Both the position numbers and the translations under genes were made by a program. From Hysterangium stoloniferum (lineage: Eukaryota; Basidiomycota; Agaricomycetes; Hysterangiales; Hysterangiaceae): a DNA stretch of 64,000 nt. Below are positions 1-24,293 of this stretch, in pieces (positions within the stretch are counted from its first letter, which is position 1; each line of letters opens with the position of its first letter). Where the stretch lies: the NCBI GenBank assembly GCA_015178975.1, contig WHVD01000096.1, forward strand, positions 1-64,000. The letters are read 5' to 3'. Under the pieces are notes generated by a model. It did not search any database, was not told the origin of the DNA, and was given only the letters and a program-made list of their open reading frames with translations.

Positions 1-840
1 ATGTGAAACGTGACTGCATTGGAACTTCATCCCAGATAATCAGTCGGACATTCTTCATGAGCTCTGCTTTTTCTGAACCCTTTTTGATATGACATAGAGC
101 ATCCTCTCCACAGGGAACAGGGATTGAAAATGTACTGTGAGAAGTGCGACCACCCTTGAGAATCATTGATGCAATTCCAGAAGAATGCCACAACAAAGCA
201 CAATGTAGCCCTTGGCCCTACATGCATGTGCCAAAGTATTCCATACAAAGGACTTGCCAGTGCCACCTGGACCATTCACAAAAAACAATTTGCCCTGCTG
301 CTGCTCATCCACTGCCTTCATAATAGTCTCAAAGGCAGCTCGTTGTTCAGGATTGCACTTTTCAAGATTGGCTTGGGCACTGGCAAGCTCATGTGCAACA
401 TTATAATTCTTTTGCTCCTTAATGAGACGGTTGCCAAGAATACCATCCCAAACGTCAGTGCAGTTTGGCATGGTTGGATAGTGTGAGAGGGACTTTCCAG
501 AATAGCGTAGGATCTTATCAATTTCATAGAGACCAAAGTCATAAACTTGGTTTGGTGATGGATTATCAATGCCATGTGTTTGCTGGAGTATGAACTCCAA
601 ATCATCACAAAGAAATACTTTAAAGTCATTCCAGAGTTCATGGGGTTGTGCAGGGGAGGACATAGTCAAAATGATAGCAAACAATCTGCGAAGTTGAAAC
701 CCAGACTCTATGCGACTGGCTTCTGTGAGGCACATGTGCCACTGGCGGTCATCTTCAAGCAAACCACGTGCAACACAGGCTTGCTGAAATGTGGGATAAG
801 TCTCACCCTGAAAGGTCCTGAAGCTGTTCAAATGAGGTGG
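1..840 (-). pseudogene. PIF1-like Helitron helicase, N-terminal part, frameshifted and truncated by the window
   Basis: The segment continues the Rep frame after the break near 830. It shows the region just before the helicase core (LASAQANLEKCNPEQRAAFE) and then Walker A in GPGGTGKSFVWNTL, about 250-295. Near 185 the frame shifts again: after YIVLCC the conserved SSGIAS, GRTSHSTFSIPVP and LIIWDEVPM (Walker B type) blocks continue in another frame down to position 1. PIF1-type helicases unwind the displaced strand during Helitron rolling-circle transfer. With two breaks this copy cannot make a normal protein unless one gap is an intron, but I see no convincing splice pair at either break. Confidence 0.8.
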
Positions 841-3800
841 CACCTTTGACAACAGTGAGCAATGTACGGAGGTGGAATCTTTCCCCACTGGCAATATTAA
901 CAAAATGAATACGCCCTATGGAAAAGCCACGTTGACGTGGCTTCCATGATTTAGTCTTGGGTACATATGTGAAATACTCAGGAAAGTCCATATAAAATGT
1001 ATCCTTGGCATGCTGTCCATTATATCCAATGAGATCCTTAGCATTAGCCTCAAAATAAGCCATGAGAGTTGTGCCTGAATGCTCTGCCCTTTGCAAAGCC
1101 TCAGCAGGACCTTGATCACCATCAAAAACTACAGTGTTTTCCCCAGGGAGATGGACACGAAGTGCCATTACTGCAGGAACCTGGGTGTGGAGTTCATTGC
1201 GCATTAATCGCCAGACAGACTCATGTGCACTGACATAACGTGCATCAAGGTACTGTTGAATCTCATCTGGTGTTGTTCCAAATTCCATAGTTGTACGATC
1301 ATGGCCCTTGTAACAATATTTATGCATGTACTTCATTGACCTATTGGTAAAGGTCAACTCGACATTGATGTGGCATTCAAAGGTGAGAATCAAAATAGGG
1401 GAATAAGGGACAACATGTCTGTTGTCATATGTAAACTTGGGAGTTTGATAAACCCTTCCATTGTTAGGGCGACGGCATGTTGGATAGCCTTCCTCATTGA
1501 CAATGGTGGCTTCACACCACTCCTTTGGATAGTGTTTACTACATTTCTTATCTACCATACAGGCAGCATTTGGATGATCAGTTCCACAGGGACCATGGGT
1601 CATAAGTTGTCCTACTAAATTAAATAGTCTGGGATGTGTTTCAGGATCTGGAAAACAGGCAGAGACCATTGAGTCGACATCTTCTGGTGTCCTTGGCTTA
1701 TTCTGGTCATCAAACCATATGAGGCAGTGCATGTGTGGAAGACCACGCTTTTGGAATTCAATAACATGGATATGAGCTACTGTTCTACCAAAGATGTGAT
1801 CTTCTGTGATCATCTTGAGTAACTTAGCCTTCTTGGCAGCAAAGACACGGGACACCAAATCAGGCCGATCAGCAGGGGTCTGGCCAGGAAGCAATTCACG
1901 GGTGACCTCCTCCCAATTGGGATTGGCAGTCATAGTGATGAAGCAGCTGGCATTGCCATACTTGCGTGCAATTGCAAATGAATTCTGTAGACTTTGCCTC
2001 ATATCCCTTGAACCCCCAGTAAATGAAGAAGGTAGTATCACCCTCTGACCAATATTATTAGCATCTGTATTGACATCCTGATTTGTAAATGCATCAACCA
2101 CCTGGTTGTAGAGTTCTGCACGTAACCTTGGTTGATTATCTCTCAGAAATCTCAATCTGCGCTGCTCTGTTATGGCCCAGGCATTGACAATATACTGCTG
2201 GAATAGCTTTTGTGCATAAAAAATGGTCATGGCTTCATTTGCTCTGGGAAATAGGCGATAGGCATAATATTCACATTGGGTCACTTTCCGACTTTTATCT
2301 TCATCTTCACCTTCTTCATCCTGCTGTCCAGGCTGGGGCTGCCAATTTTGATTTGCATAGGGAATGTCCCATGACCAACCACGCTCACCCCTGGGGAAGA
2401 GCATGACATAGTGAAGGGGTGTATAAATGGCTTGTGCATCATGCACACGATGGAACTGGCCACCCCTTCTCTGAACAATAATATCCCTTGAATCACCATG
2501 ACCTGTGTCACCCTCTCCAGGGAGAATGACTGCAAGTTCATCACCGGTTGGAAGGTTGTACCGTCGTGGATCATTAAAAGCCTTGTAGCTCAGTCTAACA
2601 TGCAACCTTGGAGTCTCTGCCTGTGTCCTCAATCGTTCATGTGCCTGGCGATAGAGTTCTATAAAGGGATTATATTGCTCCATCATATCCTGGAGGTCAG
2701 AAAAGGTTTGGTTGTTCAAGTTTCGATTTGCCCTGTGATTCTGCCTTTGCTGCAATGCCTGCCTCAATCCATCCTCCTGTGCCAATGCAGGATCATGGAT
2801 GTAAAGCTGAGCATAACTACGTGATACACCTTCTGTGTAAGGAATCAAGGCACCATGTTGGTGATACAATTCACCATGAATTTTGAAGACATATGGGCCA
2901 CCACCACCTTGCAAGACAGACTCATCCAAATTGACACCAAGTGATGTAAATGCAAATGCATTATTATATGCCCGAATATTTTTCCGAAATTCTTTGCCAT
3001 TGTCTGTATTATCCTCAAGGAGAGACCTTAAAGTATGAGGGACTGGCTCAAGTATTGGGAGGGCCACCTTTCCTTGCTTGCAGCACTTACCAAATTTTGG
3101 ATGTATCTTGGAGCTATTTGCCAGACGCTCATCTATCCAGTGAAAGGCTCCACAGTCTGGACACTGTATGTTCATATGCCCCAAGTCATGTCTTGGAAAC
3201 CTGGCCTCCACAACCGGTTGCCGTCCAATGGGTAATTGTGCAACAGGAGGTGGAGGCATAACAGGAGGTGGAACCCATTGTAGCTGTGGTTGTGCAGCTG
3301 CATTGGCTGCTGGCTGTAGAATGGCTGGAGGTGGAGGCATAGCAGGAGGTGGAGGCATAACAGGAGGTGGAACCTGTGCAGCTGCATTTGCTGCTGGCTG
3401 ACCATGCTGAATAAGTGGTAATGGGTGCAGAGGTTGGTGGTGGTGTTGTGGTGGTGCTAATTGCAAAATAGGTACTTGTGCCTGTGGTTGTTGAGGTATA
3501 TTTGCATTTACACGTGTACGCCGAGAAGGTTGCAAAGCTGCTTGTAGAGCTTCAGCCTGAGCACGCATGGCAGCTACTGCAGCAGAGCCAAGTGGGGGTG
3601 GCACACCATGATTTGCAGGTCCAGGTCTATGTGGATTCTGTGGAGGCTGCAATGGTGGTAGAGGTACATGCTGGGGTACAGAAGGATTTCTACCATGGTA
3701 AGGCAAGACCGCAGGATGTCCAGGAACCAAAAATGGATCATCATGAGATGGGCCTGCCCTCACTGGAGGTTGAGATGGGCCTGCCCTCACTGGAGGTTGA

Positions 3801-4009
3801 GATAGGCCTGCCCTCACTGGAGGTTGAGATGGGCCTGCACCCACTGGAGGTTGTCGGAATGGTTGAGAAGGTGGTGGGATAGCATGTAACTGATTCTGCA
3901 CATTAGAACGTTCACGGCGGACAGTTGGAGAGGTCATTTGCAAACGCTGCCTACGCTCCTCATCTCGCTCCTGCTGGCGATGGCGTTCAGGTGTTCGAGG
4001 GGGATCCAT
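803..4009 (-). CDS. Helitron Rep/endonuclease part (helitron-like N domain), frameshifted at its 3' end
   Basis: This 1068-residue frame starts with a proline- and glutamine-rich low-complexity region (about residues 1-270). A CPDCGAFHW zinc-type motif follows near residue 285. The Helitron-like N domain carries the HUH metal-binding motif in GLPHMHCLIWF (plus-strand region about 1713-1750). Further on is the tyrosine-rich YMHKYCYKGH segment (about 1290-1330) that resembles the catalytic Tyr region of Helitron Rep proteins. HUH endonucleases nick DNA at the transposon ends and stay bound through tyrosine. The frame ends 34 codons too early: after TSFEQL the expected helicase sequence continues in the neighbouring frame (TFQGETYPTFQQACVARG). 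I infer a one-base frameshift near 825-835. The next part is in the helicase entry. Confidence 0.85.
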   Translation of the reverse strand: MDPPRTPERHRQQERDEERRQRLQMTSPTVRRERSNVQNQLHAIPPPSQPFRQPPVGAGPSQPPVRAGLSQPPVRAGPSQPPVRAGPSHDDPFLVPGHPAVLPYHGRNPSVPQHVPLPPLQPPQNPHRPGPANHGVPPPLGSAAVAAMRAQAEALQAALQPSRRTRVNANIPQQPQAQVPILQLAPPQHHHQPLHPLPLIQHGQPAANAAAQVPPPVMPPPPAMPPPPAILQPAANAAAQPQLQWVPPPVMPPPPVAQLPIGRQPVVEARFPRHDLGHMNIQCPDCGAFHWIDERLANSSKIHPKFGKCCKQGKVALPILEPVPHTLRSLLEDNTDNGKEFRKNIRAYNNAFAFTSLGVNLDESVLQGGGGPYVFKIHGELYHQHGALIPYTEGVSRSYAQLYIHDPALAQEDGLRQALQQRQNHRANRNLNNQTFSDLQDMMEQYNPFIELYRQAHERLRTQAETPRLHVRLSYKAFNDPRRYNLPTGDELAVILPGEGDTGHGDSRDIIVQRRGGQFHRVHDAQAIYTPLHYVMLFPRGERGWSWDIPYANQNWQPQPGQQDEEGEDEDKSRKVTQCEYYAYRLFPRANEAMTIFYAQKLFQQYIVNAWAITEQRRLRFLRDNQPRLRAELYNQVVDAFTNQDVNTDANNIGQRVILPSSFTGGSRDMRQSLQNSFAIARKYGNASCFITMTANPNWEEVTRELLPGQTPADRPDLVSRVFAAKKAKLLKMITEDHIFGRTVAHIHVIEFQKRGLPHMHCLIWFDDQNKPRTPEDVDSMVSACFPDPETHPRLFNLVGQLMTHGPCGTDHPNAACMVDKKCSKHYPKEWCEATIVNEEGYPTCRRPNNGRVYQTPKFTYDNRHVVPYSPILILTFECHINVELTFTNRSMKYMHKYCYKGHDRTTMEFGTTPDEIQQYLDARYVSAHESVWRLMRNELHTQVPAVMALRVHLPGENTVVFDGDQGPAEALQRAEHSGTTLMAYFEANAKDLIGYNGQHAKDTFYMDFPEYFTYVPKTKSWKPRQRGFSIGRIHFVNIASGERFHLRTLLTVVKGATSFEQLQDLSG
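3240..3402 (-). repeat. Imperfect duplication encoding proline-methionine and Ala-rich stretches
   Basis: Two imperfect copies of a roughly 75-base block (about 3240-3315 and 3325-3402) encode PPPVMPPPP followed by an Ala/Asn/Gln-rich segment in the Helitron protein. This is a low-complexity linker in front of the zinc-type motif. Confidence 0.7.
3745..3852 (-). repeat. 27-bp coding minisatellite, four units
   Basis: Four nearly identical 27-base units stand head to tail. They encode a nine-residue repeat, read on the minus strand as variants of SQPPVRAGP, in the proline-rich N-terminal region of the Helitron protein. The unit length is a multiple of three, so changes in copy number keep the frame. 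Confidence 0.9.
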
Positions 4010-5429
4010 AATGATAGATCAGCTGAATTGGGAGGGAGGGAGAGAGGGAATGTGAAATGCAAATAGTGTGTAGCAAAATCGGGAGGCCAAGGAAAATGTA
4101 AGAAATACACTGATATAAACTGTTTGGTTGTTAAAAAGTGCACAATAAATATCAAAAATGGAATTCACCTTGAATATTGCCTGACTATCTGGAAGCAGCC
4201 ACAAACAATAGGAGGAGCAGAAGGATGTCAAATTTGAAAGAGTAGACAAATCCAGAGTCTAATCCAAGGAAAAGGTCCAGAGAAAACTCCAATAAAATAT
4301 AATCAAGAGAGCTATATGGCTTATCTGGAACCTAGCCAAGTTCCCACCAGAATGGAACACCAAACAGGGAAATCGCTGCAAGACAGTGCAAAGATAGGAA
4401 GGCTTATATGTGACCCCTCAGTCAATGTACAAATCCAAAGATTAATGCACGTGACCCAGGTTAAGCCCCTTGCACCGCTAAGTGAGAGAGGTACTTGGCA
4501 ACAGCAAACTAAGGCTGTGCAGGTGCACTTCACACTCAATAGGCTTGTTCAACCTGTAAGGTACACCTCCTCCAACTGGCAAGCACGTCACTGATACACA
4601 AAAAAAAAAAGCCAAATAATCGCAAGGAAAGCAGCAGCAGTAGACAAAGAAGAGCTGTCAGAAGAGGTCAGAAGAGGAAAGGAAGGAAAGTGGAAAAAGA
4701 AACCTTATATAGAGAGTGAATCCTAAAATAGGGCAAAAATGTGAAATTAAATTGTAAATAATTTTGAGCTAAGAAATAGCATCTAAAATAACATACCTGG
4801 AGATTTATAAAAAGAGACAGAAAGGGTGACAGGGCAAAAAGGTGGCACAAAAGGGCCAACTATTATCAAATAATATATTTTAACTTTTTAAACCAAGCAA
4901 AAAATGAATTAAAGGCCAGGACTCACCTTGTACCTTAAGAAAGCACTCAATAGAAGAGGAGGAATATATGGATTGATCAGGGAGAGGGAGAGGGAGAGGG
5001 ATTGAAGTAAAAGACACTTGAGAAAGCATAGAAAAAAGGATTAAATATTTTATAGCAATATAAATGGATGATAAACATACCTGAAGACAGTATATATCCT
5101 TCAGGGAGTGGACTACCAAATTTAGAGGCAGAGAAAAGTGTGGAAAGAGGGCAAAACCGGCTGCATAGATATTATTTAATGATTAAAAAAGGCAAAAATA
5201 GAGAGAAATAAATACAGGACTCCACACACCTTTAATAATGCCCTAATACCTCAGAGAATTGTTTCAAGAAGACTCTACAACAATATAGGTAGTAGAGCCT
5301 TTGCTGGGAGGGAGTGGAAGTGGAGATAGGAGTAGCAGCCTCGAGGAGTAGCAGCCTCGAGGCTTACTGTGGACTTCCGGTGGTTCCATGGAGCGTGGGA
5401 ACCTGGGCCGAAATTACCCCTGCCCTGAG
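4010..5429. other. No gene seen; AT-rich non-coding DNA, probably Helitron 5' flank
   Basis: No frame in this stretch resembles a protein I know, and the short open frames on both strands look random. Around 4976-5000 there is a short run of GGGAGA units, and at about 5326-5362 a 16-base word (GGAGTAGCAGCCTCGA) occurs twice in tandem. The part next to 4009 should contain the promoter and 5' end of the Helitron, but I could not place the terminus. Confidence 0.5.
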
Positions 5430-9076: not shown

Positions 9077-10105
9077 GTGGAAGAGGAATCGATGCGAGTC
9101 GCAAGCTCGAAGATTGCCCACTTCATAGAAAGCATCTCCAAGCTGGAAGCAGACAACACCTCCAGTCCCCGACCATCTATGGTATCCTCAGGGAATGAGA
9201 CGGTAGATGACTTTGATCCTGCAGGCCCAAAGACTTCAGAAGTTCCTTCCTTGGAGATGCTCTCCCTGGAGGATCTGCATAAATTGGTCAACTTAGGACC
9301 TGACGTCCCTCCTGATGTTATGCCTCACCTTAGCTCAATATTGACTAAGAACGTGCAAGCATTTGGAGTTGACGGAAGACTGGGCCAGGTAGACAGCAAG
9401 ACCACTATCCCGCTGAAAACCGATGTGCAACCAGTGTCTGTACCGATGTTTCCAATTTCCCCTGCCAACAGGAAGGTCATAGATGAGCAAATGGACACCT
9501 GGTTCCAACAAGGAGTCATCGAACCTTCAAAAAGCCCTTGGGGAGTGCCTGTCTTCATAGTCTATCATAATAATAAGCCTTGCATGGTCATTGATTATTG
9601 AAAACTGAACAGCCTTACTATCCCAGATGAGTTCCCCTTGCCCCGACAATCAGAAATTATGCAAGCACTCTCGGGATCCAACGTTTTATCCTCGTTCGAT
9701 GCCCTAGCTGGTTTTACCCAACTAGAAATGCTGGAGGAAGACCAACACAAATGGCCTTTCGATCATATCGAGGACTATGGCAATTTAGAAGGATGCCTTT
9801 CAGATTGAGGAATGGACCTTCCATTTTCCAGCAAGTCATGCAAAACACGCTGGCACCCTATCTGTGGATATTCTGTCTAGTCTACATAGATGATATAGTA
9901 ATCTTTTCTAAGACCTGGGAGGATCATATTGAACACCTGGACCGAGTATTACAAGCAATAATTTCAGCTGGCATCACTCTTTCTCCCAAACAATGCTATG
10001 TAGGCTACAACTCTATTCTCCTTCTTGGACACAAGGTGTCGCAGTTAGGCTTTTCGACCCACAAGAGAAAGTATGAGCCATATTGGAACTAGCAACCCCA
10101 ACTAA
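9077..10105 (+). pseudogene. Gypsy reverse transcriptase remnant
   Basis: The N-terminal part reads through GVIEPSKSPWGVPVFIV up to VIDY, then meets TGA at 9599-9601 where Arg is expected (VIDYRKLN pattern). The same frame continues with LNSLTIPDEFPLPR and SSFDALAGFTQLEM. One base is then lost near 9750 and the frame resumes as MAFRSYRGLWQFRRMPF. The catalytic box YIDDIVIFSKT (about 9880-9912) is intact. So the active-site residues survive, but at least one stop and one frameshift separate the parts. Confidence 0.85.
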
Positions 10106-10860
10106 GGTGTCTGAGCTTCAACGTTTTCTGGGTATGGTATTGTACTTCTCAGCTTACATACCCTTCTACGCATCGACTGTATCCCCACTCTTCTTGCTAC
10201 TCAAAAAGGGCACACGATGGTCTTGGGGAGTAGACCAGGAATGAGCCTTTAATGACATCAAGGCAGCCCTGAGCTCTTCTCCAGTTCTAGCACATCCCGC
10301 GATCAGAATGCCCTACCGTCTCTACATGGACGCCTCTGACTTCACCCTAGGCTGCTGTCTGCAGCAAGTACAAAAAATGACTCTATGGGATCTAAAGAAC
10401 ATGAAGATCTATACCCAAGCGAAATCAGCATTTGAGCAGTCAAAACCAGTGCCAACGTTCGTCACCTATTTTAACACCAAGGTTCCCAAGATCACTTGGA
10501 CGGACTCCTGGGCAAAAACATTCGAGGATACTTGTGTTACAGTAGAGTGGGTTATCGCTTACTGGAGCTGTACCCTCAAGAAACCAGAATGCAACTATTC
10601 AGCCACAGAGCGGGAAGCATTAGCTGCTAAGGAAGGCCTGGGTCATTTTCAACCATTCGTGGAAGGGGAGCATGTACGCCTCATCATGGACCATGCCACT
10701 TTACAATGGGCTAGGTCATACGAGTACACCAATCGATGACTGGCCACATGGGGGGCAGTGTATGCAGTGTACCCAGGCCTCGAAATACTACATCACGCTG
10801 GACAAGTACACAGTAACGTCGATCCCCTATCTAGACTACCACGAGTACCCCACTCAGTGA
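10106..10860 (+). pseudogene. Gypsy RNase H remnant
   Basis: The connection region reads VSELQRFLGMVLYFSAYIP. It is followed by RNase H with LYMDASDFTLGCCLQQ (first catalytic Asp), YSATEREALAAKEGL (catalytic Glu) and VRLIMDHATLQW (Asp). TGA codons at 10242-10244 and 10737-10739 stand where Arg is expected (DQERAFNDIK and NRRLATWG patterns). RNase H degrades the RNA of the RNA-DNA hybrid. There is an unusually long insertion of about 60 residues (about 10370-10530) between the first and second catalytic blocks. Confidence 0.8.
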
Positions 10861-11980
10861 GTCCAGCTGGAGATGATCTTCTGACAATCGTGTCAAGCTC
10901 GCTCAGCAAGGGAACTGAGGAAAAACCACAGGAGGATAATCCCCCGAGGAGAGCCATTTTTGCCACACAACGAGAACTAGTAGAACCCATCGGAACCCCA
11001 GAGGACACCCCACAAACTGAATGGGATTTGTATAACTTCCCCAGAGATGATGAAGTGGATGAATCGCTATTCTGTTCATTAAACCCACAGCTGCTTGTAA
11101 GTATCAATGAAAGATTCCTAAAAGAGTTCTCAGAAGGGTATCAGAAGGACCCCGCCTTCAGAAGCTACTATGTCGAGGAACTGAAATCCCCAAACGCTGT
11201 AGCTACCCCTTCACATTTCTTCATTAGAGAAAAGGGACTGTCGTATTTTCGCAATTCAGACTGGAAAAGTCAAATCTGTGTTCCTAACAATATGACAACC
11301 ACAATTCTAAAGCTGATACATGATAATCCCTTTGAAGGAGCTCACGCAGGAGGGCGTAAACTATTCCTGCTCATGAAAGACCCCTTCTTCTGGCCTAGAA
11401 TGTTACAGGATTGCACGGCGTATGCTTGCAGTTGTGACACCTGTCAGAAGATGAAAATAGATCACTCCGCACTGCAGGGAGCCCTCAGACCAGCTGATGT
11501 ACCTTCTAAGCCATTCGAAGTAGTCTCCATGGATCTCATAACCAGATTACCAACTTCCAGCAGCGACTCTTACTTGGCCATTTTCGTGGTGGTTGACAAC
11601 CTGACACACTTCATTATCTGTGAATGCACCTTTTCTAACTTGTCTGCCGAAGGATTTGCATAGATCTTCGTAAACCGAGTGGCATCTCCTTTCAGACTAC
11701 CCTCCAGGATTATCTGCGATAGAGACAAAAGGTGACCTGTAGGTTCTGGAGGGAAGTTTGCAAGATATATGGAACCGCTCTAGCCGTCTCTTCTTCTCAC
11801 CACCCTCAGACGGATGGGCAGACAGAAAATGTGAATGCCACCCTCAAACAAATGCTGAGGGCTTACTGCTTATCAGCCAAGGAAGAATGGTCGAAATGGA
11901 TTGGGATAGTAGCCAACACTTACAACTCCACTGTTCATAGTTTGACTAACTATGCTCCCACCTTTGGCAGATCGCGTGTT
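10861..11980 (+). pseudogene. Gypsy integrase remnant, truncated at the 3' side
   Basis: The H2C2 zinc-binding region is visible (LIHDNPFEGAHAGG, then YACSCDTCQKMK). The catalytic core has MDLITRLPTSSSD (first Asp) and HHPQTDGQTENVN (region before the catalytic Glu). A TAG at 11661-11663 and a broken frame after IICDRDKR interrupt the core. Homology ends at about 11970-11980 within the segment after LTNYAPTFGRS, exactly where the sequence switches to the reverse complement of the HNH gene. No chromodomain is present. Integrase inserts the cDNA copy into the host genome. Confidence 0.85.
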
Positions 11981-12795
11981 TCCAGATTCATGATGCTGTT
12001 GGTCATTGTACCTTCACTCTCAGCATCAGACATAATTTCATCTACTTTCAACCACTCCTGGAACTCGGGCATTGGAGGAATGTCATTGGGCTCATGGATG
12101 AATGGCCAGAAACCTCGTACCTGCTATTCATAGATAAGGAAGATTGATGGGAATGGTGCATGGTGGTGAGATATGTCCAGATTAATTGCTTTGCCATGGT
12201 AGATTGCATTATTAACTTGGCGACTATAATTTATAAACACAAATTTCTTGTACTAATAGGCAGTGAGGATTGTGTGGCAGTTTAAAAATATAAAGGTCAC
12301 GCTTACTTGAGGAACAAATCAGATGAAAAATTGATATTGGTCAAACATAATGTGGTGGTTATGGCACATCAACAAGCCATTTCGTGGTTCATGCTGGACA
12401 GATTTCACTGCAGATGGAATGTATGGTCTCCTTCTGAGATCTTCCCACTATACTTCAGATTAGAGATGAGAATGAACTGTAATGATAAAACTCACAGTTT
12501 GACTCTCAGAGCGAGGGATTACATGACAGTGCTCAATAATATTCATACCACAAACAACACAGTGCTGTTGGCCATCCCAAAGATCTCTTTGGTTTATCCC
12601 AGTCTTGAAAGCAGTTGAGGTAGATAATTGTGATAGTGGGCATTCATTGTACTCAAGTTCTGAAGGTAGTTTTTTAGGAAGAGGAAGTGGAGAGTGGTAT
12701 AGGACTGACATGGTTGCACAATAAATTGGAGTTTGATGTGTAAGCTTGGATGGTGTTAATAAGGACCTAGCTGAGTTTGGAGTACACCAATCAGG
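11981..12795 (-). pseudogene. Truncated inverted copy of the HNH-nuclease gene, introns retained
   Basis: On the minus strand this matches the gene at 22773-23705 from about 85 bases before its ATG into its third exon. It contains the start region, the HNH core (RDLWDGQQHCVVCG, HCHVIPRSESQT) and both intron sequences. The retained introns show that it arose from DNA and not from a spliced RNA. It stops about 200 bases before the end of the coding sequence, inside gypsy integrase. Its tail has stops where the other copy is open (for example after the CSWIRKIDG-matching segment). It is probably not functional. Confidence 0.85.
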
Positions 12796-12814
12796 AGGAG
12801 CAATCCTCAATCAG

Positions 12815-13239
12815 GTTGTTTCAAATGTGGAGATTCATCGCATTGGGCAAGGGATTGTCCTAAAAGAAGACAGAGATTTGCTCAGCAATCCAAAAATCAG
12901 AAGAACCTAAATAAGAAAACAGATGACTCATCTGGGAGTACATCTTCCCCTTCTGTCGCTAGCAGGGGTATATTTACCACCGTCTAACCCACATTCTTCT
13001 TGAGTAAGGAGAGTGTGCAACATAGATATTTCTTGGATTCCACAGTATCAGGACATTATGTGCCAAGTATGTATGACAATTCTATAGCATATAAAACCCC
13101 GAAGAAAATACAAACAGCGAATGGCACTTATATCCATGTCAAAGGTATTGGGACCTTGGGATTTAAAGTTACGAAATTTGGATCAGAATTTAAAGGTGAA
13201 ATTCCCAATGTTGAATGGACCCCCGAAGTTAAGGTGTGA
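12815..13239 (+). pseudogene. Copia zinc knuckle and protease-region fragment
   Basis: The translation gives a knuckle CFKCGDSSHWARDC (CX2CX4HX4C) followed by a Lys/Ser-rich linker. After a stop near 12986 comes the copia protease-like region RYFLDSTVSGHYVP and KKIQTANGTYIHVKGIG. The usual Asp-Ser/Thr-Gly active site is here LDSTVS, so the canonical glycine is missing and the enzyme would be dead. The knuckle begins almost at the edge of the inverted HNH fragment. Confidence 0.65.
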
Positions 13240-13504
13240 CTCCTTAATCCTGTACAGTTTTTCAAGGACGGATTGTTGAAGTAAATGTGTTGTGTAAGCC
13301 ACAGTATCTCTGATAAGCTGGAATGTAGTACATATCAAGGAACCGTATAGTCGAGCCTTCAGATTGAACCGCAAAAGAAGTTTGAGATGCAGTGTGCACG
13401 AAACACGAAGGCAAAGCACTGTCTGTAAAGATAGATATCAGATGCTGCATGTATGAAATGAAATGCAAAGACAACTCGGCTGTTGTTACCCACCTTGATG
13501 AGTT

Positions 13505-13918
13505 GATGAAATACAGGCTCAACTGGAAGGCATGGGCACTGGACTCTCAAATGATGATTTGATCACCATTATGCTCGGATCACTACCAAAGTCATACCGT
13601 CCGTTAATCAGCATTATATCAATATCAGTGAAGTTCTCAGCCACACCTTCAGAACCGGTAAAGGTGGTCAATGCCATAATTGAAGAGTATGAACGACTTA
13701 CCATAGATGAGAAAAAGTCAAAACAATCTGAGATGGCAATGGCTACTTCAAAGGGGTGCAGCAAGCCAAGAGGTAGTGAAAGGCCACAGAGATCTGTCGA
13801 AAATGTTGAATGCTGGAACTGCAAATGGAAGGGTCACTTTGCAGCTGACTGCGGCAAATGGAAGAAAAAGTGCAAGGAAAGGGATGATAATCGAAATGAC
13901 AACATGGTGAGAATGTGA
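13505..13918 (+). pseudogene. Copia gag fragment (UBN2 type) with zinc knuckle
   Basis: The frame shows LSNDDLITIMLGSLPKSYRP and then IIEEYERLTIDEKK, the common copia gag pattern, ending with the knuckle CWNCKWKGHFAADCGKWKK. It is open for 128 codons from 13532, but the upstream part of gag is missing or scrambled. The function in an intact element is RNA packaging. Confidence 0.75.
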
Positions 13919-14994
13919 GCATTGCCATATCAAGTATGGATTTTGTGTTAATGACAACATTCACCAGACCTACCTTATCGTGGGAAACAAGTCCACCTAA
14001 GCACATGGAAACCGACGTTTATAATGTTGAACCACAAGTCGCCTAATCGCTGTCGATTTGCTGTCTTTAATGAAAACTGCGTGAATCTTGAACTCAAGGC
14101 TAAAAAAGGACATGGTACCTATTCACCTGGAAAATGATGGACCACAGTAGAATGAAATGTCAAGATTGATGAAAGAGTCATTGAAATTTTGAACGACACA
14201 CTGGTTGAGGGAGGGAATGACCCTACAAGCACTCAACGGGTTGTACAAAACACACTGACAGACTGATCCGTACAATATGGACCATGGGATGAGATCACAT
14301 ATGCAAGGATGGAACCTCTTGAGGATCTTGAGGATATCATGGCAACCTGAGAGTCAGTGATGCTATGTCGAAGCCACCATGGATGTAAAACCATCAGGAT
14401 ATGTCTGTGATATTAACAGCAGACAAAGGACGAGGGAGATAGAGCCAAAAGGTCCAGAATTTGATAGAGGACTCCAGACAGCTCCAGTGATGTTGCCCGA
14501 CATTGCAGCTGTCGTGGCATTACTAATTACTAAAAGCAGACAGAACTCTGCAGGATGAAATAAATGAGAGCTTACTGGCATTGTCGACAACGCTTGAAAA
14601 TGGGACAGCCACAGCTATCCATGAATCGGAAGAACTGCCCACTAGTGTTGAGGACATGAGGTGCTGAATAACCATGGAAAGAGACATGGAAGTCAATGAG
14701 GCAGGTCAAAATGATTTTGATAACACGATACCGGTGATTTTGATGCCATGTGAGGCCACTATGGGAATGGGAATGCATGAGCTGGATGACCCACCAGTGA
14801 GCATTGAAGAGACAGAATGCGGACTGACTATCGGGTGGAGCGTTAGGCTCAATGAATTGAACACTACAGTTTTGAACGACATACCGATTGAGGAAGAGAA
14901 AGAATGGACCCCTGGACGCTCAGAACGTTATGCAAAATACACAAAACAGCAATGCCATTATGCTCTATAAGCATGGTCCCAACGGTGAGATAAC

Positions 14995-15235
14995 CGACTA
15001 AAAATCTAGGTTCGCCGTGCAAGGATTCTCTCAGCAAGAAGGAACCAATTATAATAAAATGTTCTTACCTACCATTAAGCTGACCGCCATCCACGTTATC
15101 ACCACTATTGCTGCTCGAAATGATCAGGCTGGAGCAAGTGGATATCAATGCTGCGTGTCTCAACATGCCCCTTACTGAGACAACTTATATATGCCAATGC
15201 AAGGGACTGGGAATTCCTGGAAAGGAACATGTGTT
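14995..15235 (+). pseudogene. Copia reverse transcriptase fragment
   Basis: One frame reads SRFAVQGFSQQEGTNYNKMF and then LPTIKLTAIHVITTIAARND, which corresponds to the start of copia RT (pattern RLVARGFSQ...YDETFAPVVK). After a frame change the words VDINAACLN and PMQGTGNS follow (pattern VDVKTAFLNG...QPPGF). The catalytic YVDD box is not found nearby. The duplicated block at 15245-16032 interrupts the domain. Confidence 0.7.
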
Positions 15236-15244
15236 GAGGATGTG

Positions 15245-16032
15245 ATTGAGATTAATAAAAGACTGGATAAAATGAATATAAGCTTACCGCGATTTTGCAC
15301 CAGGGGTGAAAATGAGATGGATGCAGTCATGCATGAATGGGAAGACCAGCCCAGTGTTAAGGTGGGGAGTAACTATGGAAAGAAAGACTAAAGTCATAGT
15401 TAGCACAAGAATTCATAAGCAAAAAGGACAAAATGGGACAAGTTCAAAAATGGCCTTCATGGTAAGATACAAATATGACTCAGGCTACTTGGTTTGGTGT
15501 CCCAGATCCAGGGGAATAAAAAAGATACAAGGTGTACCTCTCAACATGATGTCATATAGTCCCTGTAAGCTTGGTGTCCCAGATCCAGGGAATAAAGAAG
15601 ATACAAGGTGTCCCCTCACCACAACATCATATGGTCCCTGTAAGCTAAGCAGGGGAGTGCCGGGCCCATATGACATCACTGCAGTGTGAACAGCTATTAA
15701 TAAAAGAATGAATAAAATCAATGTGAGCTTACTGTGATTTTTCACCAGGCATGAAAATGAGATGGATGCAGTCATGCATGAATGGGAAGGGCCCCCTAGT
15801 GTTGAGGTGGGAAGTAACTTCAGAAAGAATTAAAGTCATAGTTAGCATAGGAATTTGTAAGCAAAAAGGACAAAATAGGACTCACATTCCAAAATAGCCT
15901 TCATGGTAAGATATACAAACATCACTCAGGCTACTTGGTTTGGTATCCCAGATCCAGGGGAATAAAAAAGATATGAGGTGTGCCCCTCACCATGATGTCA
16001 TATGGTCCCTGTAAACTACACGGGGGAGCGCG
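15245..16032 (+). repeat. Tandem duplication inside the copia remnant (A-b-b'-A'-b'')
   Basis: A block of about 245 bases (A, 15245-15490; A', 15697-15937) contains GAGATGGATGCAGTCATGCA in both copies. Each block runs into a shorter element of about 95 bases (b at 15490-15570, b' at 15571-15665, b'' at 15938-16032) marked by CCCAGATCCAGGG. The copies differ by scattered substitutions, so the duplication is not recent. A more diverged trace of A is visible near 14565-14670. No protein function is apparent. Confidence 0.8.
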
Positions 16033-16039
16033 CTATGTT

Positions 16040-16720
16040 TTACAGATGTGCAGAGGAAAACACATTTATGATCGCCATGGATATAGACGATGTGATGCTG
16101 GCAGGAAATTTGAAGGAGAACTTAAATTGAAGTAAAAAGGGAGCATATGACAAGGACAATCTCATTTTTACAATGTATGTAGATTGAGAAAATTGTAGCG
16201 TGTTTTGGTCTACAGGGCACAAAACTGTTAACTGCAATTGACCCCACCAGCATCTCTTGATGACGCAACACCCAAGCATGTCCTGCCAACACGAAGATAT
16301 GCAAAATATACCATATGGCAAAACAATGGTATCGCTATTGTCACAATACATACAGAACCCCAACGGTGCGCATTGGAAAACGGCAAAGAGAGTTTTTCGG
16401 TACCTGAAAGGAATGCAAGACAAACGTTTAGTGATTGGTGACAAGCATAATGACCCACGCAATGGCATTGAAGTTTTCACAGACATAGATTGGGGCTCAC
16501 AAGGGATCAAGATACGATATTGGGAAATGAGAAGGGCAATTCCTTGGAGTTCAAAGAAGAAACCTATAATGGGACCATGATAGACAGAAGTGGAATATAT
16601 AGCTGCGACTCAGGTCAAAAAGAAATTTTTTTTGACACAGTCAATTGCGATCACCAATCCATGATTCGGATTGGTGAATTTGACACTCGAACGAAGCACA
16701 TGGATATTCAAGACTAATTT
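16040..16720 (+). pseudogene. Copia RT end and RNase H remnant
   Basis: Short pieces in changing frames match the end of copia polyproteins: MIAMDIDDVMLAGNLKE (pattern VxVDD...AG near the RT active site), AKRVFRYLKGMQDKRLVIG, then TDIDWGSQGIK, WSSKKKPI and EVEYIAATQVKK (the RNase H region), ending with TRTKHMDIQD at about 16690-16716. Stops and shifts make it non-functional. The terminal KH-I-D motif marks the end of the pol frame, so an LTR would be expected just after 16720, but none was recognised. Confidence 0.75.
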
Positions 16721-17296
16721 ATTCGTGATGTGGATGAGACGGCACGCCTTTGTGCGGCTACATCCGTACAGACCACAACCCCATTGGCCTCCAAAACATT
16801 AGCTAAATCAAAGGGGGAGAGAGAGAGAGAGAGAGAGAGATGGGCGGGAGAGATGGGGTGGGGCTGGGGGAGTGCGGTAGGGCATCGGTGCGTCCACCGC
16901 CGCGTCCTCGATCACGATGTGGTCATTTGGAGTGGTACGATAAAGTTGAGGGAATAAATGATATCCTTTGCGGAGGTGTCATGGTCCTTTGTTGTTGGTG
17001 GGGTAGCGTATATCCGTTCTCAACACTGGGGTCATGACCAGAAGCTCAAAGACTGCCCCAATTAGCACCAAGCAAACCTATCGAATGATGATCAATTTGA
17101 CATTTATATATAAACAAGCCAATAAAATAGTCATACTTCTCATTGAATGCCCATTCCACCTCTTGTTGACATTCTGAACTGTACCAAGCCACTGCAGATA
17201 AATGGTATGGTGTACGCGTAGCAGTCCTTCCGCCATATTCGCCACCACATCTGCGAGTCCGATGTAGTAATTTCAATAGTACGTCGCATCATCCTC
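16721..17296. other. No gene seen; GA tract and GC-rich repeat module
   Basis: A (GA)n tract lies at about 16814-16839. It is followed by a GC-rich module (about 16840-16930) containing CGCGTCCTCGATCACGA, which recurs at about 18185-18210 and 18450-18475. The remainder shows no recognisable coding sequence. Confidence 0.6.
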
Positions 17297-18131
17297 CCAG
17301 ACCAGAGAAGCTGCGTTACATGAAATGAAGATGTTTTTGCGAAGACATGCTGGGTCAGTTGGGCACTTCAAAGTGGGGTGTGGTTTGAACCATTACGTAA
17401 GCAATTTGACCGCTGAGAGTGATACGACGAGGAGCAACTGCCCACGCAAACTTGCACTAGATTAATCAATTTTTGCATACAAATATATATATATATATTT
17501 GTTGGTTATAAATTATAAATTTTTTGAAGAACCATTTGGAAGTGTGCCGCCCGGATGTGTAAATCTACGGTAAATCCATCTGTAAATCTCGCTAAGCGCT
17601 CACTTACCTCCCTATCTTACCTGCTCTTACCACCGTAAATCTAGCCAAAATGAAAACAGATGGCTATATAAAAAATCAAGGAACATGCCGTGATCTCCCA
17701 GAAATGGGACTCATGTAATTTATATTGATAATTTGAATATGGCAGGGTCTATATGTCTCATAAATGATATAACAAAACTCATTGCCCCCCCTTACCCAAT
17801 GAAAAAGAACTCGCTAGAAAAAATAGTTTTTTGGTGGTGCAAATGGAAATATTTATTTATTTATTTATATATATAAAATAAAATAAATCACGCTGTGACT
17901 TTGTTGGCAGTGCTATCTTACTACGACAAAAGAAAGAGAGAGGAGTGTGTGTGCGTGCGTGCGAGCGTGGAACCCACCAAAAAAAAAAGTGCGCGCAGCC
18001 ACCTACGGCAGGTCCCCTGGAGCTGGGTCCCTGGATGTCACTGCCATGTGGCGGGGCGCAGCCGTCGTGCCGGCGCGATGCCGCGATTTACGGGGGTCGA
18101 CGAGATTTACGCGCTTAAGGTGTAAATTTTG
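17297..18131 (+). repeat. Long direct repeat, copy A (about 835 bp)
   Basis: This copy starts with CCAGACCAGAGAAG and is matched almost base for base by the block starting at 18984. Inside are an AT-microsatellite, several GTAAATC words in a row, a TATTTATTTATTTA stretch and a GC-rich end with GCGATTTACGGGGGTC. No open frame is convincing. The length, the non-coding content and the sharp composition changes suggest part of a non-autonomous element or its terminal region. Confidence 0.85.
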
Positions 18132-18983
18132 GGTGGGGCTGGCGGGCTGGCTGGGGGGTGCGGTAGGGCACTGGTGCGTCCGCCGCCGCGTCCTCGATCA
18201 CGACGTGGTGTCTGTCTTGGAGTGGAGATGGGCGATACGGGGGTACCGTGACAGGCGAGAATGCCAGAAGAGGGAAAGAGAGAGAGAGAGAGAGAGATGG
18301 GCGAGAGATGGGCGATGCGAGTACCGTGACAGGCGGGCGGGAGAGATGGGGTGGGGCTGGGGGAGTGCGGTAGGGCATCGGCATCGGTGCGACTTATTTC
18401 TGTAGGTAGTGACTTACTCGGTAGGTTTCAGGTTTTGTTATTGTATCCACCACCGCGTCCTCGATCACGACGTGGTGTCTCTCTTGGAGTGGAGATGAGC
18501 GATACAGGGGTACCGTGACTGGCGAGAATAGCCAGGTGACCTTGACAACGCGAGGTCACCAGCGTCCACCAGAGCGCCGCTGGGCGGACCACCACCTTAT
18601 CACTCGCCGCAAACAGTTGTCTCCAAAGATTGAACTTTGTCAGCTAGTGTAGAGGGTGGCTAGGGGAAACGGGATAGTAACGGTTTCGAGCCGACGAGAG
18701 CTCTCATCAGGGGGATACCGCTACCCCGACCGTTTCGCCCATCCAGAATTACTGATTAGGAGTCTACTACTGAGCCTGGTCCAAAGGGAGTGATAAGATA
18801 GTCAATTCGTGCCGACCTACGCGTGCATCGAACTCTGAGAATCTTGGTGACCCAGTGGTGGGTAGTATACGGTTGGGAGCGTGTACCGAGGCCAGCAGGT
18901 TTCCCTGCTGGATCGGATTTGTCGATGTCCATACAGCAAGACGATGGTGGAATCGAGAATGCCACGTTCTGAACCGTACCAAG
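18132..18983. other. Spacer between the long direct repeats; nested GC-rich repeats
   Basis: The spacer contains a second (GA)n tract (about 18274-18297) and two copies of a GC-rich module with CGCGTCCTCGATCACGACG (about 18185 and 18455), related to the module at 16900. There is also a palindromic GAGAGCTCTC at 18696-18705. The open frames here come from high GC content and short repeats and resemble no protein. Confidence 0.6.
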
Positions 18984-19856
18984 CCAGACCAGAGAAGCCG
19001 CGTTACATGGAATGAAGATGGATGGATGTGCGAAGACATGCTGAGTCAATCGGGCGCTTCAAAGTGGTCGAGGTTGTGGGGGTGGTTTGAACCATTACGT
19101 AAGCAATTTCGCTGAGAGTGACACGACGAGGAGCAACTGCCCGTGCAAACTTGCACTAGATTAATCAATTTTTTGTATAGAAATATATATATATATTTGT
19201 TGGTTATAAATTATAATTTTTTTGAAGAACCATTTGGAAGTGTGCCGCCCGGATGTGTAAATCTACGGTAAATCCACGGTAAATCCACCTGTAAATCTCG
19301 CTAAGCGCTCACTTACCTCCTATCTTACCTGCTCTTACCACCGTAAATCTAGCCAAAATGAAAACAGATGGCTATATAAAAAATCAAGGAGCATGCCGTG
19401 CTCTCCCAGAAATGGGACTCATGTAATTTATATTGATAATTTGAATATGGCAGGGTCTATACGTCCCATAAATGATATAACAAAACTCATCGCCGCCCCC
19501 CCCCCTAACCCAATGAAAAAGAACTCACTAGAAAAAATAGTTTTTTGGTGGTGCAAATGGAAATAATTATTTATTTATTTATATATATAAAATAAAATAA
19601 ATCGCGCTGCGACTTTGTTGGTGGTGCTATCTTACTACGACAAAAGAAAGAGAGAGGAGAGTGTGTGTGCGTGCGTGCGAGCGCGGAACCCGCGTGAGTG
19701 AGCGGACAGTGTAGAAGTGAGTGAGTTGCCAAAGGTCCCCTGGAGCCGGGTCCCCGGACGTCGCTGCCGAGCGGCGGGGCGCGGCCGTCGTGCCGGCGCG
19801 ATGCCGCGATTTACGGGGGTCGGTGGGATTTACGCCGCTTGGGGCGTAAATTTCGC
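18984..19856 (+). repeat. Long direct repeat, copy B (about 870 bp)
   Basis: Second copy of the block at 17297-18131 in the same orientation, with small insertions (for example an extra GGTAAATCCAC near 19270 and a longer poly-C near 19500). The high but imperfect identity indicates a duplication that has aged. Confidence 0.85.
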
Positions 19857-19945
19857 CGGGTACGGTGACTTACTGGTGGCTGAGGGTGTTAACGTAATAG
19901 CGTTATGTCAGCCACCTCTGGAATGAAGTATGATTGAGATTGTAA

Positions 19946-19976
19946 CCTCTTAGTGAAGTTATCCCTCACTAAGAGG
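19946..19976. repeat. Perfect 10-bp hairpin, first of a pair
   Basis: CCTCTTAGTG is followed after 11 bases by its exact reverse complement CACTAAGAGG. A shorter version of the same hairpin lies about 105 bases downstream. Confidence 0.75.
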
Positions 19977-20051
19977 TATGCAAAGTTTTTATACAAGCTG
20001 TCTGTGTTGACTTACTCATTCTACCTGTTAGTAGGTAGATATCACTATATA

Positions 20052-20076
20052 CTTAGTGAAGTTATATCACACTAAG
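20052..20076. repeat. 7-bp hairpin related to the one at 19946, followed by CTAA
   Basis: CTTAGTG and CACTAAG form a 7-bp stem. The loop resembles that of the upstream hairpin (AAGTTAT core). CTAA occurs at 20082-20085, a few bases after the stem, and is followed by T. This is the layout of a Helitron 3' end, but the match is short and could be chance. Confidence 0.55.
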
Positions 20077-20226
20077 AGTTCCTAATAGAACTATGTTAAG
20101 TTTTCGGTGCGGACCTCGAGAGAGTTAACAATGAGTGATATTCACATTTATCTGAGCTGTCAAATCATAAGGAAAACTGCACAGCGCTGACCACCGAAGC
20201 ATGACGGAAGGTGGAGAGGGACATGC

Positions 20227-21060
20227 ATGGAAGAGTTTACTCTTTCGCCACCGGGCAGGATAATAGCTGAGGGTCTCGATCGCAAGAATGAAAGGGCCAT
20301 CAACGTCATGGACTGGCTGGCAGCAGCAACAGCCGTGGTCGATCGTATGAGGGTGTATGGTGGTGACACAAGGGCTATTGCACTTTTGGCACATCATTCT
20401 ATCGTCACAACAATCGCGAAATCACATACTGGGAAATCCCCATGGTGTTGTAGTTAAGGGGCTATCGCATGCTCCCGGTCACAAGAACAACCAAGGCTGT
20501 TATACCATACCACAGGTGATGCAAGGTACCGACTATGTCTTACAACCATTTTCCATTGCTACGTACTATATTTCTTCGATATTGTTCCCAACTCATTTTC
20601 TTGATCTTGGACTTCATATAAGAACAACTAAAGTTACCAGATTATACCTCAGTCGATTTACACTGCGTGTCGACTGAGGTACGTTAGCCCATCTCTATTC
20701 CGCGTTCTACAATAGTATTAACCCATTACTTTTCTCGATGGTAGATATCTACGTCTATTACACATGGAATATGCCCGAAACCTATCTCACGACTTGAGTT
20801 GCTTGGATAGCAACTCTCTGCTGATTACTTCGACACGGGCAACTCTTCAAGCAGCAAAGGCGAGTGTCGCTCTCACGACCCCACCTAAGTGCACATTGTC
20901 AACAGGACCGCAGTAATCAGCGCACTGAGAGGGAGAGACCCCATTGCTTTCGGTGCGGAGTGCAGGGGCATTTTCCAGCCGATTGCAATCCAAAATCACA
21001 GCAGCAGGAAGGGGCGTTGCCCCGGTGGCACAAAATGTCAAGAGCAAACACACTCATTGC
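20227..21060 (+). pseudogene. DIRS-like gag remnant with CCHC knuckle
   Basis: The first frame (from 20227) reads ERAINVMDWLAAATAVVDRM and later AIALLAHHSIVTTIAKSHT, a pattern I associate with the gag-like protein of these elements. It then shifts. About 400 bases later a CX2CX4HX4C knuckle (CFRCGVQGHFPADC, about 20945-20990) appears. The pieces are in different frames. The assignment rests on pattern memory only. Confidence 0.6.
20646..20680. repeat. Perfect 11-bp hairpin
   Basis: ACCTCAGTCGA is followed after a 13-base loop by its exact reverse complement TCGACTGAGGT. It lies inside the gag-like remnant of the DIRS-like element. I see no coding reason for it. Confidence 0.75.
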
Positions 21061-21130
21061 TCCCAACAGCAAACAGTTCTATTTTAACTGGGCCCTTGGA
21101 TCACAGTGAGGCAGCTGCAACAACACACGC

Positions 21131-22330
21131 ATGCACAAAGAAGGCCACGGAGTTGGCGATTGCAAACTCGACTCAGTTGACCCGGTGCGTACGTTAAGTA
21201 TATTCGGTATATTTATGGACTGGCAATACATCATATCAGGTTTGATAGATGGATTTGACATTGGATTGAATGAACATATAAGACGCACAATCATTTTCGA
21301 AAATCACGGGTCATCATTATTAAATATAGACTTCATAGACCAGTACATACTGAGCGAGCAGAAAGCCCGGCGTCACTCCAAATGCTTCACACCAGAAGAA
21401 TTGGAATGGGCTATTGGACCATTTCGGACGTCACCTTTGGGGCCTAGTACCCAAACCGAGTTCAGACAATTTCAAGACCTTTCCTTCCCTCAAAGAGATC
21501 CAACATGTTCCTCATTAAACAGCATGATCAATTCCGATGATTTCTCCGACGAAGTGTGGCACCTTGGCAGAGGCTTCAGCGCTCATTTTATCGTTACCAG
21601 AAAGTTATGTAGCAGCCACATTCGACATTTTAGCGGCATACAGGGTGATGCACATAGACCGGACCAGCGAAACGCGTTTTGTATATACTGGAACGGGTTG
21701 GTCTACACCGACCGGGCAGTGATGTTAGGGCTAGCATCAAATGCAGGAGTGTTTGGCAGCATAGTGGACATGCTGCTGGCCTTGTACAGGACAGTGGTGG
21801 ATAGAAGAATATTTCATAGCCTTAACGGCACGGTTTGGAGTACCATGGAGCAGGAGCAAAACAAACCCATTTTCGACAGCGCAGAGATACATAGGCTTCA
21901 TATGGAACTTGGAAACCAAAACAATAACAGTGCCAGCGGAGAAACTAGAGGTCGCCTCGAAACTTATTGAAAGATGGACACACAATTCTCAGCGAACGAT
22001 GCAAAGAAGCTGCACGGGAAGCCAGTACACGTCTCGTCCATTTTTCCGTGGACAAGACCGTTTCTTCACTCCATAGGATGGGGGGCGACACCAGTACATC
22101 ATTTGGATGAGGTATAGTAATGGACGATCAATGGGCTGCTTGGAAATGGGCATCCCACTTCAAACCTCAGAAGCCGGCTTGCGTAAATTCCACATCTTCC
22201 GCGACTTTTTCTCTGTGGTAGAGAAAGGCTGCCAGCATCCGATTAGCAGGCAGATGGAGATCCTTAGCGTACGAGGCAAACATTAGGGCCTTTGACAGGT
22301 TGCATCACGGCATGTAGGGAACCTTTCAGT
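21131..22330 (+). pseudogene. DIRS-like reverse transcriptase and RNase H remnant
   Basis: The 279-codon frame from 21131 contains YIISGLIDGFDIGLNEH, EELEWAIGPFRTSPLGP, DLSFPQRDPT, INSDDFSDE and WNGLVYTDRAVMLGLASNAG. Between about 21560 and 21655 the conserved block (ILSLPESYVAATFDILAAYR) lies in a different frame, so two frameshifts cancel and leave a long but garbled frame. At the catalytic box the expected V-D-D reads VVDRRIFHS, so the second catalytic Asp seems lost. Weak RNase H traces follow (DDQWAAWKWA near 22120-22150). Confidence 0.7.
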
Positions 22331-22772
22331 CGCCCTCCCTCTACCCAACTGTACAGCTCCTCACAGAGATTCCGCATTAGACAAAGCTGGAGCTATGGTT
22401 CATATGTTCTATGGACTGCTTTAAATTATACTTTTGATCTATTTACATTCCCTTGTTATTAGGAATTATTGGCAGTCTCAATATACGGGGCGAAGCACAT
22501 TAATATAATGTTAACTACATGACCTTTATATACTAGGACATCGTCGATAAGATTGAATCACTACATCACTTGCATCATAAGTCTCATCGTATGCTGCATC
22601 ATATGTGCGGCTCCACTGGTTCCAACGCTTGGACCTTCAATACTCGTAACTCAATACTTGTGAATAATGACTCGGGAAAAACTTCTGTGACATCTGTTGG
22701 TGGTTTTCAAACTCAGCTAGGTCCTCCTTAACCCCCTGAGCTACATACTGTACTCCAATTTCTTGTGCAACC

Positions 22773-23705
22773 ATGCCAGTCCTATACCACTATTCACTTC
22801 CTCTTCCTAAGAAACTACCTTCAGAACTTGAATATGATGAACGGTCACTATCACAATTATCCACCTCAACTGCTTTCAAGACTGGGATAGACCAAAGAGA
22901 TCTTTGGGATGGCCAACAGCGCTGTGTTATTTGTGGTGTAAATGTTATTAAGCACTGTCATATAATCCCTTGCTCTGAGAGTCAAACTGTGAGTTTTATC
23001 ATTACAGTTCATTTTCATATCTAATGTGAAGTGTAGTGGAAAGATCTCAGAAGGAGGAAATACATCCCATCTACAGCAAAATCTGTCCAGCATGAACCAC
23101 GAAATGGGTTGTTGATGTGCCCTAACCACTGTGCTATGTTTGACCGATATCAATTTTTTATCCGATTCATTCCTCAAGTAAGCTTGACCTTTATATTTCT
23201 AAATTGCCACACATTCCTCACTGCCTGTTAGCACAAGAAATTTGTGTATATAAATTATAGTGGCCAAGTCAATAATGCAATCTACCATGGCAAAGCAATT
23301 AATCTGGACATATCTCACCACCATGCACCATTCCCATCAATCTTCCTTATCCATGAACAGCGGGTACGAGGTTTCTGGCCATTTGTCTGTGAGCCCAATG
23401 ACATTCTGCCAATGCCTGAGTCCCAGGGGTGGCTGAAAGCAGATGAAGTTGTGTCTGATCCTGAGAGAGAAGGTGGGATGAGCAACAGCAGCATGAACCT
23501 GGCCTGTAAAAACATGGGATCTGCCCTTGGAGGTGAAGAAAGACCTGGGATGACATCCCTTGATTTGGATGCAAATGCCATCCAGGAGATACTTCTCGCA
23601 ACTTACAGGTCACCATCATGGAAGGCTTGCATGCAAGAAGGGACATCTTGGGAGGGCACTGCCGAGGAGAATGTTGCTAAATACAATGGTTTGGTTGAAT
23701 TGTAG
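22773..23705 (+). CDS. HNH endonuclease domain protein, three exons, intact
   Basis: Exons at 22773-22988, 23037-23177 and 23232-23705 join in frame to a predicted 276-residue protein. The HNH-type fold is indicated by RDLWDGQQRCVICG (CxxC zinc/structural pair), IKHCHIIP (His-His catalytic region) and RNGLLMCPNHCAMFD (Asn and His of the motif), within the first 150 residues. HNH domains cut DNA using one metal ion, but the role of this mushroom-expanded family is unknown to me. The intron borders are GTGAGT...GTGTAG and GTAAGC...TTAG, phase 0 in both. A truncated inverted copy lies at 11981-12795. The C-terminal half is polar and has no recognised domain. The gene sits among dead transposons yet shows no break, so it may be a domesticated or cargo gene. 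Confidence 0.8.
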
Positions 23706-24293
23706 TGCTCATTCAGTTATGCTCACATGCATTTTATTTATATTTTCTACTGCTTTGCCTTCTTGAAACCTAGTTACAATGTAAAGTCCAATATTGACTA
23801 CCAAAGCTTCACCAGTTTACAAAGCAAGTTCCCACAAACTCGAAGCGTACTACAGTAAAGTGCTATTTGGTTTGGCACCAAACATGCTAGGATATATACC
23901 ACAAACATATATACGCTGCTAATCACTCGATGCTATTACAAGAAACAACAACCGAGCCGCATTCATTGATTTCTGCCAAGGTTTATCTCCCCAGCAAGCA
24001 AAGCTGCATCCAGTTATCATGAGTGGAAGGTTCGCTAGGCCCGTCAATCCTCAAGGAGTATCGTCACATTGTTTGCTCTTCACTAACTTCTTTGTCTCCT
24101 GATCAGCCAACCGGACCAGCACCTAACATCTGGGAACATTACCTTGTATCTGATCAGCGCTAAAGATATTCATACTTTCCAGGCTACAGTATCAGGATGT
24201 CAACTATCGTGGAACAACGGATACAGCTACAATATCTCTCAAACTACAGAGACATGGATGATACAGTGTGATGCAGGCTCATCAAGTAGGCAA
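23706..24293. other. No gene seen
   Basis: This stretch contains the presumed 3' end of the HNH gene and then AT-rich sequence with short random frames. I recognise no transposon motif or RNA gene. Confidence 0.5.

Follow-up and report, generated by a model that had tools for sequence, protein, structure and literature searches.

A truncated, intron-retaining copy of an HNH_2 gene bridges two broken retroelements in Hysterangium stoloniferum

Captured genes are known from Helitrons of Pleurotus ostreatus (PMC4289320, in the sections drawn on here; "HNH" does not occur in its main text), and PMC11708051 lists an HNH endonuclease as one of four transferred genes whose ratio of nonsynonymous to synonymous substitution rates (Ka/Ks) is above 1. 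Literature searches on HNH in mushrooms returned nothing related beyond the latter article, and "HNH" is absent from the main text of PMC10799480. Among ten fungal genomes whose transposons were studied, three, all from basidiomycetes other than mushrooms, are reported to show CpG-type decay, for which a process resembling methylation induced premeiotically was proposed (MIP; PMC4352252, in the parts used); MIP itself is described in Ascobolus, and the consulted parts of PMC13297926 do not mention mushrooms in connection with it. Here we analysed the first 64,000 bases (positions 1-64000, the window) of the 331-kb contig WHVD01000096.1 (C551) of Hysterangium stoloniferum, with searches of the whole genome (111 Mb, 554 contigs). 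The window holds an HNH_2 gene at 22773-23705 on the plus strand and a truncated copy on the minus strand at 11964-12779. We consider, with a probability of about three in four, that a small HNH_2 subfamily duplicated at the DNA level and that this copy is one of its unprocessed pseudogenes, truncated at the 3' end and brought to its present setting by breakage and repair or by erosion of its flanks.

A preliminary description of this DNA had proposed a gene of three exons without breaks, and this was borne out: exons at 22773-22988, 23037-23177 and 23232-23705 are separated by GT-AG introns (22989-23036 and 23178-23231), and the spliced frame is open over 276 codons, an alternative acceptor at 23237 likewise preserving the frame. 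PF13391 (HNH_2) was the sole Pfam match in the 276-aa protein, at 48.4 bits against a cut-off of 21 and over profile positions 1-65 of 66. By reading the sequence we found CxxC, HIIP and NG motifs. At a putative third HNH position the gene carries Cys, and the copy and the paralogous loci L081 and L083 carry His; we infer that this site is the third catalytic position of the motif. Searches with the same protein gave no family in NCBIfam, no match in PADLOC and none among PDB sequences at E up to 1.

The inverted copy, lying about 10 kb away as previously described, was recovered as a match with E = 0, in which 728 of 832 positions are identical with gaps counted and 719 of 816 (88.1%) without; under the settings used it was the only inverted pair of at least 60 bases in 1-40000. 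The pair is thus real, and the ends first given for the copy, 11981-12795, move to 11964-12779. On the gypsy side its homology reaches 11964-11966 and ends within exon 3, and on the other side it extends about 68 bases upstream of the ATG, to 12779, rather than the 85 or so first proposed, copia sequence being present from 12784-12790 on. The exons of the copy contain two stops and a frame-shifting 7-base deletion. Because both introns are retained, the copy is a DNA-level copy and not a processed transcript of the gene, as had already been argued; a processed retrocopy would be missing its introns, and here both are present.

Mapping of the two borders revealed a setting different from the one first described. 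Left of the copy lies a gypsy pol fragment on the plus strand (10062..11964; H2C2 and weak rve matches), broken within integrase, and further upstream of it begins, at 7498, a frame with a CCHC knuckle. Beyond the copy, also on the plus strand, lies a copia-type zinc knuckle/protease fragment without its 5' part (12784..13273; named by eye from its translation), whose homology ends at 13273 in three relatives. When the left flank was searched against the genome (best 40 of 340 candidates scored), 33 of the 41 matches listed stopped at 11964 (query base 405), one other being the window itself; of the 11 gypsy loci printed, seven in the same register diverge from the window after 11964 and four are in the opposite register. 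The right-flank search (best 40 of 107 scored) gave 36 of 40 listed matches beginning at 12784 or 12790, the rest consisting of three that begin at 12787, 12792 and 12796 and of the window itself. The homologies overlap by about 1 base at the left junction and about 2 at the right. Neither the gypsy continuation beyond 11964 nor the copia sequence preceding 12784, each taken from three relatives to 1.5 kb past the junction, was found in the window. Since gypsy homology stops at 11964, copia homology starts beyond the copy and both remainders are absent, the copy joins two broken elements, one gypsy and one copia, and the earlier placement inside gypsy integrase falls away: what follows the copy is not the gypsy remainder.

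Both junctions fall inside the retroelements, and the copy is antisense to both pieces, an orientation in which intron retention would be compatible with an RNA route. These features would suit uptake of the HNH gene by a gypsy or copia element in antisense, with the introns unspliced and the chimera produced by template switching during reverse transcription. We regard this as unlikely, considering that a single element would not show the order integrase-HNH-gag/protease, that the tested gypsy and copia remainders are absent from the window and that the HNH stretch was found in a gypsy-copia setting nowhere else.

The preliminary description had further suggested capture by a mobile element, for example a Helitron, and the borders of the copy offered little in favour of this. 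The borders of the copy share one direct repeat of 5 bases (TTTGG), no more than chance: shuffled flanks gave 0.77 five-base matches on average, with at least one in 47% of trials. CACC (4 bases), which like TTTGG (5) lies near both borders, was tried as a target duplication and rejected together with it as chance-level against the shuffled flanks. The two borders gave no inverted match of at least 7 bases, and neither border itself carried a CTRR in a scan that covered this motif and made no separate search for the TC end. On the plus strand the nearest CTRR is CTGA at 12771-12774, and on the minus strand the nearest starts at 11985, about 20 bases inside the copy.

In favour of 11964-12779 being the remnant of an HNH gene captured by a Helitron or other DNA transposon, one can point to Helitron replication/helicase frames within the window (163..4018, minus strand; Helitron_like_N and PIF1 matches), to the captured genes of P. 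ostreatus cited above and to the position of CTGA a few bases inside the right border. Yet this CTGA belongs to the gene homology and is followed by G rather than T, the inverted and direct repeats behave as just described, and the HNH stretch occurs in a gypsy-copia setting only once, the seven relics described below being cut differently. Furthermore, about 8 kb that include gypsy sequence separate the helicase frames from the copy (a distance measured from the frames themselves), and in P. ostreatus the captured genes described for one Helitron family follow the helicase on its downstream side (PMC4289320, same sections), whereas the copy lies on the other side. We regard such a capture as very unlikely.

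What a real insertion looks like here is illustrated by an LTR-like (long terminal repeat-like) repeat of about 200 bp at 22457..22656 (strand not assigned), upstream of the gene, which is flanked on both sides by CTTGT (22452-22456 and 22657-22661) and for which the relic L007 provides the empty site; the HNH copy differs from it in these respects. Copies of this repeat elsewhere are mostly 92-97% identical among the matches listed, with one at 84%, and some on C19, C36 and C542 are paired at a spacing of 2.1-2.3 kb, suggesting a short LTR element.

We found the HNH subfamily at nine places in the genome (9 candidates in the DNA search and 10 in the protein search, all scored): the one open gene, the copy and seven more relics, two on C538 and the others on C531, C551 at 66 kb, C223, C301 and C35. 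The relics L003, L004 and L005 keep the 3' end, L006 and L007 keep the 5' end, and L008 and L049 are older copies with internal losses. All seven are cut at differing points, and among the nine candidates of the DNA search only this locus has an HNH stretch between gypsy and copia. The genome-wide comparison of borders thus gave largely the outcome that the preliminary description had named as refuting capture, copies whose borders differ and which have no terminus in common. As stated there, HNH proteins are multiplied, at least in this genome: 26 PF13391 matches, counting the gene and its copy, were listed from 52 scored candidates, and several are short and of single-exon size. They include a second inverted HNH_2 pair on C496 (L085/L086, C496:163600-171400), about 5.5 kb apart and 78% alike. 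On C178 (L084, C178:65000-68500), HNH_2 matches lie within a palindrome of 99.4% identity over 3492 of the 3501 bases fetched, which is perhaps an assembly artefact.

That the gene recurs at nine places might also mean that it is part of a short mobile unit, at about 22403-23851, with the relics as its old copies. L007 and L049 have a short upstream flank in common with the gene that ends near 22403, and L003 and L008 end near 23841-23865 downstream. Against this, no exact inverted match of at least 8 bases exists between the outer edges of such a unit (22380-22470 versus 23780-23920), L004 and L005 end elsewhere, L005 and L006 have a different upstream flank in common, and L003 and L008 agree past the gene's own edge; we consider a mobile unit of this kind quite unlikely. 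The flank in common to L005 and L006 was otherwise not found, and in L005 it lies next to a 3' fragment, which suggests that L005 arose by an internal deletion between an L006-type upstream flank and the 3' end; we provisionally take this flank as ancestral. A mobile flank common to L004, L006 and L007 was also considered and rejected. The L007 stretch is an abundant repeat (2425 first-look candidates, best 40 scored) and uninformative, since its matches elsewhere extend no further than query base 128-144 of 211 and fail to reach the HNH junction. L003 and the copy are both broken near the same bases (TGGCA), on different contigs; as for their being two halves of one split gene, such a coincidence may not be improbable given several relics.

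These results favour DNA-level duplication into a pseudogene over the mobile routes. Repair of a break in transposon-rich DNA would have united the broken ends of a gypsy and a copia element around a piece of HNH DNA, this stretch arriving as templated filler, by template switching or by fragment joining, with 1-2 bases of overlap. Alternatively, the copy could be an older duplicate whose flanks were eroded by deletions. CpG methylation and deamination would then have degraded both members, with the gene at 22773 keeping its frame.

Several observations weigh against this account or limit its detail. An overlap of 1-2 bases at the junctions is not diagnostic, and erosion by deletion and insertion of filler are indistinguishable here. 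The last bases of the copy on the gypsy side are closer to relic L004 than to the gene, its 3' end being nearer to the L003/L004 sequence where the gene is without 18 bases, so that the copy need not descend from the gene at 22773. An 81-base run identical between gene and copy (23271-23351; permutation p = 0.0018) hints at later local gene conversion or at uneven constraint, and with possible later conversion the 88% identity would be no simple date for the duplication.

We further examined the decay of the pair. The CpG observed/expected ratio was 0.21 in the gene and 0.25 in the copy. Among 1551 overlapping 933-base windows in 24301-64000, none had a ratio of 0.5 or lower (minimum 0.64), and in 1-22400 this was true of 480 of 859; the left 22 kb contains transposon relics, and the right part ranged from 0.75 to 1.09 in 2-kb steps from 24001 on. 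Next to the gene the ratio was 0.69 at 21970-22402, 1.06 in the LTR-like insert, 0.46 at 23706-23851 and 0.59 at 23852-24260, reaching about 1 from 24400 on, so the flanks of the gene are intermediate in CpG and not fully normal. In 8 of the 24 adjacent double mismatches between gene and copy, TG stands against CA, as would be expected where a single ancestral CpG decayed in the opposite manner in the two sequences. With these 8 mirror sites and the CpGs kept in the gene only (5), in the copy only (3) or in both (2), 18 putative ancestral sites were obtained, of which the gene would have lost 11 and the copy 13. Of the 12 differences in exon 1 polarised by L006/L007, five fell to the gene, four to the copy and three were ambiguous. 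The similar CpG losses and this polarisation together indicate roughly equal amounts of change in gene and copy.

Up to three of the changes in the gene would be Arg to Cys, one with the Arg seen in the copy and two predicted from mirror sites, one of the latter falling on the putative third HNH position. The "intact" gene is, on these readings, not clearly healthy, and the evidence for selection on it appears mixed. Differences between the gene and L003 in 23545-23705 fell on third positions in 10 of 14 cases (p = 0.004), and differences between gene and copy in 20 of 68, without preference (p = 0.52). The gap of 18 bases in the gene relative to L004 preserves the frame. All four inferred CpG sites in CGA codons were kept in the gene, as against 3 of 14 others (one-sided p = 0.011), a test of few sites with inferred ancestors, in which at 22842 L006 sides with the copy. 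In simulations of neutral change the frame stayed open in 4-43% of runs, varying with the assumed number of changes.

One unlikely, if attractive, explanation of this decay is that homology-directed CpG methylation of duplicated DNA, similar to MIP, would erode donor and copy alike, with the frame of the gene surviving under selection. The CpG-poor gene (flanks 0.59-0.69) and L005 (0.22; flanks 0.87 and 1.09) count for it. Duplication-directed methylation was suggested by the low ratios of the pair on C551, of one arm on C496 (0.21) and of the palindrome on C178 (0.04), compared with 0.63 at L081 and whole-locus values of 0.87-1.03 at the HNH_2 loci L079, L082, L083, L087, L088 and L089, which were taken irrespective of close copies. 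The other C496 arm, however, stood at 0.65, and depletion of the low arm continues 2 kb into equally depleted, mostly unpaired outer DNA. Five of the seven relics were depleted (0-0.31) and L008 and L049 were not (0.74 and 0.80); the flanks of L003, L004 and L007 were lowered on both sides and that of L006 on one, leaving L005 as the only clean island. Duplication as the trigger is thus not supported by the C496 pair, and the undepleted L008 and L049 also count against it. Should CpG decay directed by homology be demonstrated, the duplicated genes of this fungus would serve as its natural reporters.

Other repeats lie around the pair. Directly duplicated blocks at 17411-19835 (about 625 bases summed, spacing about 1.7 kb, 89-97% identity) have normal CpG content. 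A repeat at 20180-22332 is related to C10:55882-57761 and contains an open reading frame (21110-21970) that has no Pfam match and that by eye resembles a DIRS-type reverse transcriptase. Downstream of the gene, 24546-24961 recurs on C538 at 92-95% identity in a different order, about 9 kb from relic L003.

For the interpretation of similar loci, the nearness of transposons to a gene and its pseudogene does not in itself argue for capture, and a copy should be called internal to an element only once its two borders have been mapped. A CpG-poor open gene deserves similar care, as an unbroken frame surrounded by relics may belong to a gene that is being lost.

Set beside described systems, the gene agrees with HNH_2 proteins (PF13391) in scoring above the cut-off and in its CxxC, HIIP and NG motifs, and departs from the copy, L081 and L083 in carrying Cys for His. 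Gene and copy show the CpG to TpG/CpA loss known from the transposons of Microbotryum, Melampsora and Puccinia (PMC4352252, in the parts cited above), with the difference that an open gene is affected here and that the C496 pair does not support duplication as a trigger. The resemblance to the Helitron-captured genes of P. ostreatus (PMC4289320, as far as drawn on) lies in the occurrence of a gene fragment in the same region as Helitron frames, and does not extend to Helitron ends at the copy or to a repeated association. The closest likeness is to unprocessed (duplicated) pseudogenes: the copy is a DNA-level copy that keeps its introns, is truncated, carries stops and a frameshift, and extends in homology upstream of the coding sequence. 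Nothing of substance separates it from this class, its placement between two broken retroelements being a local detail.

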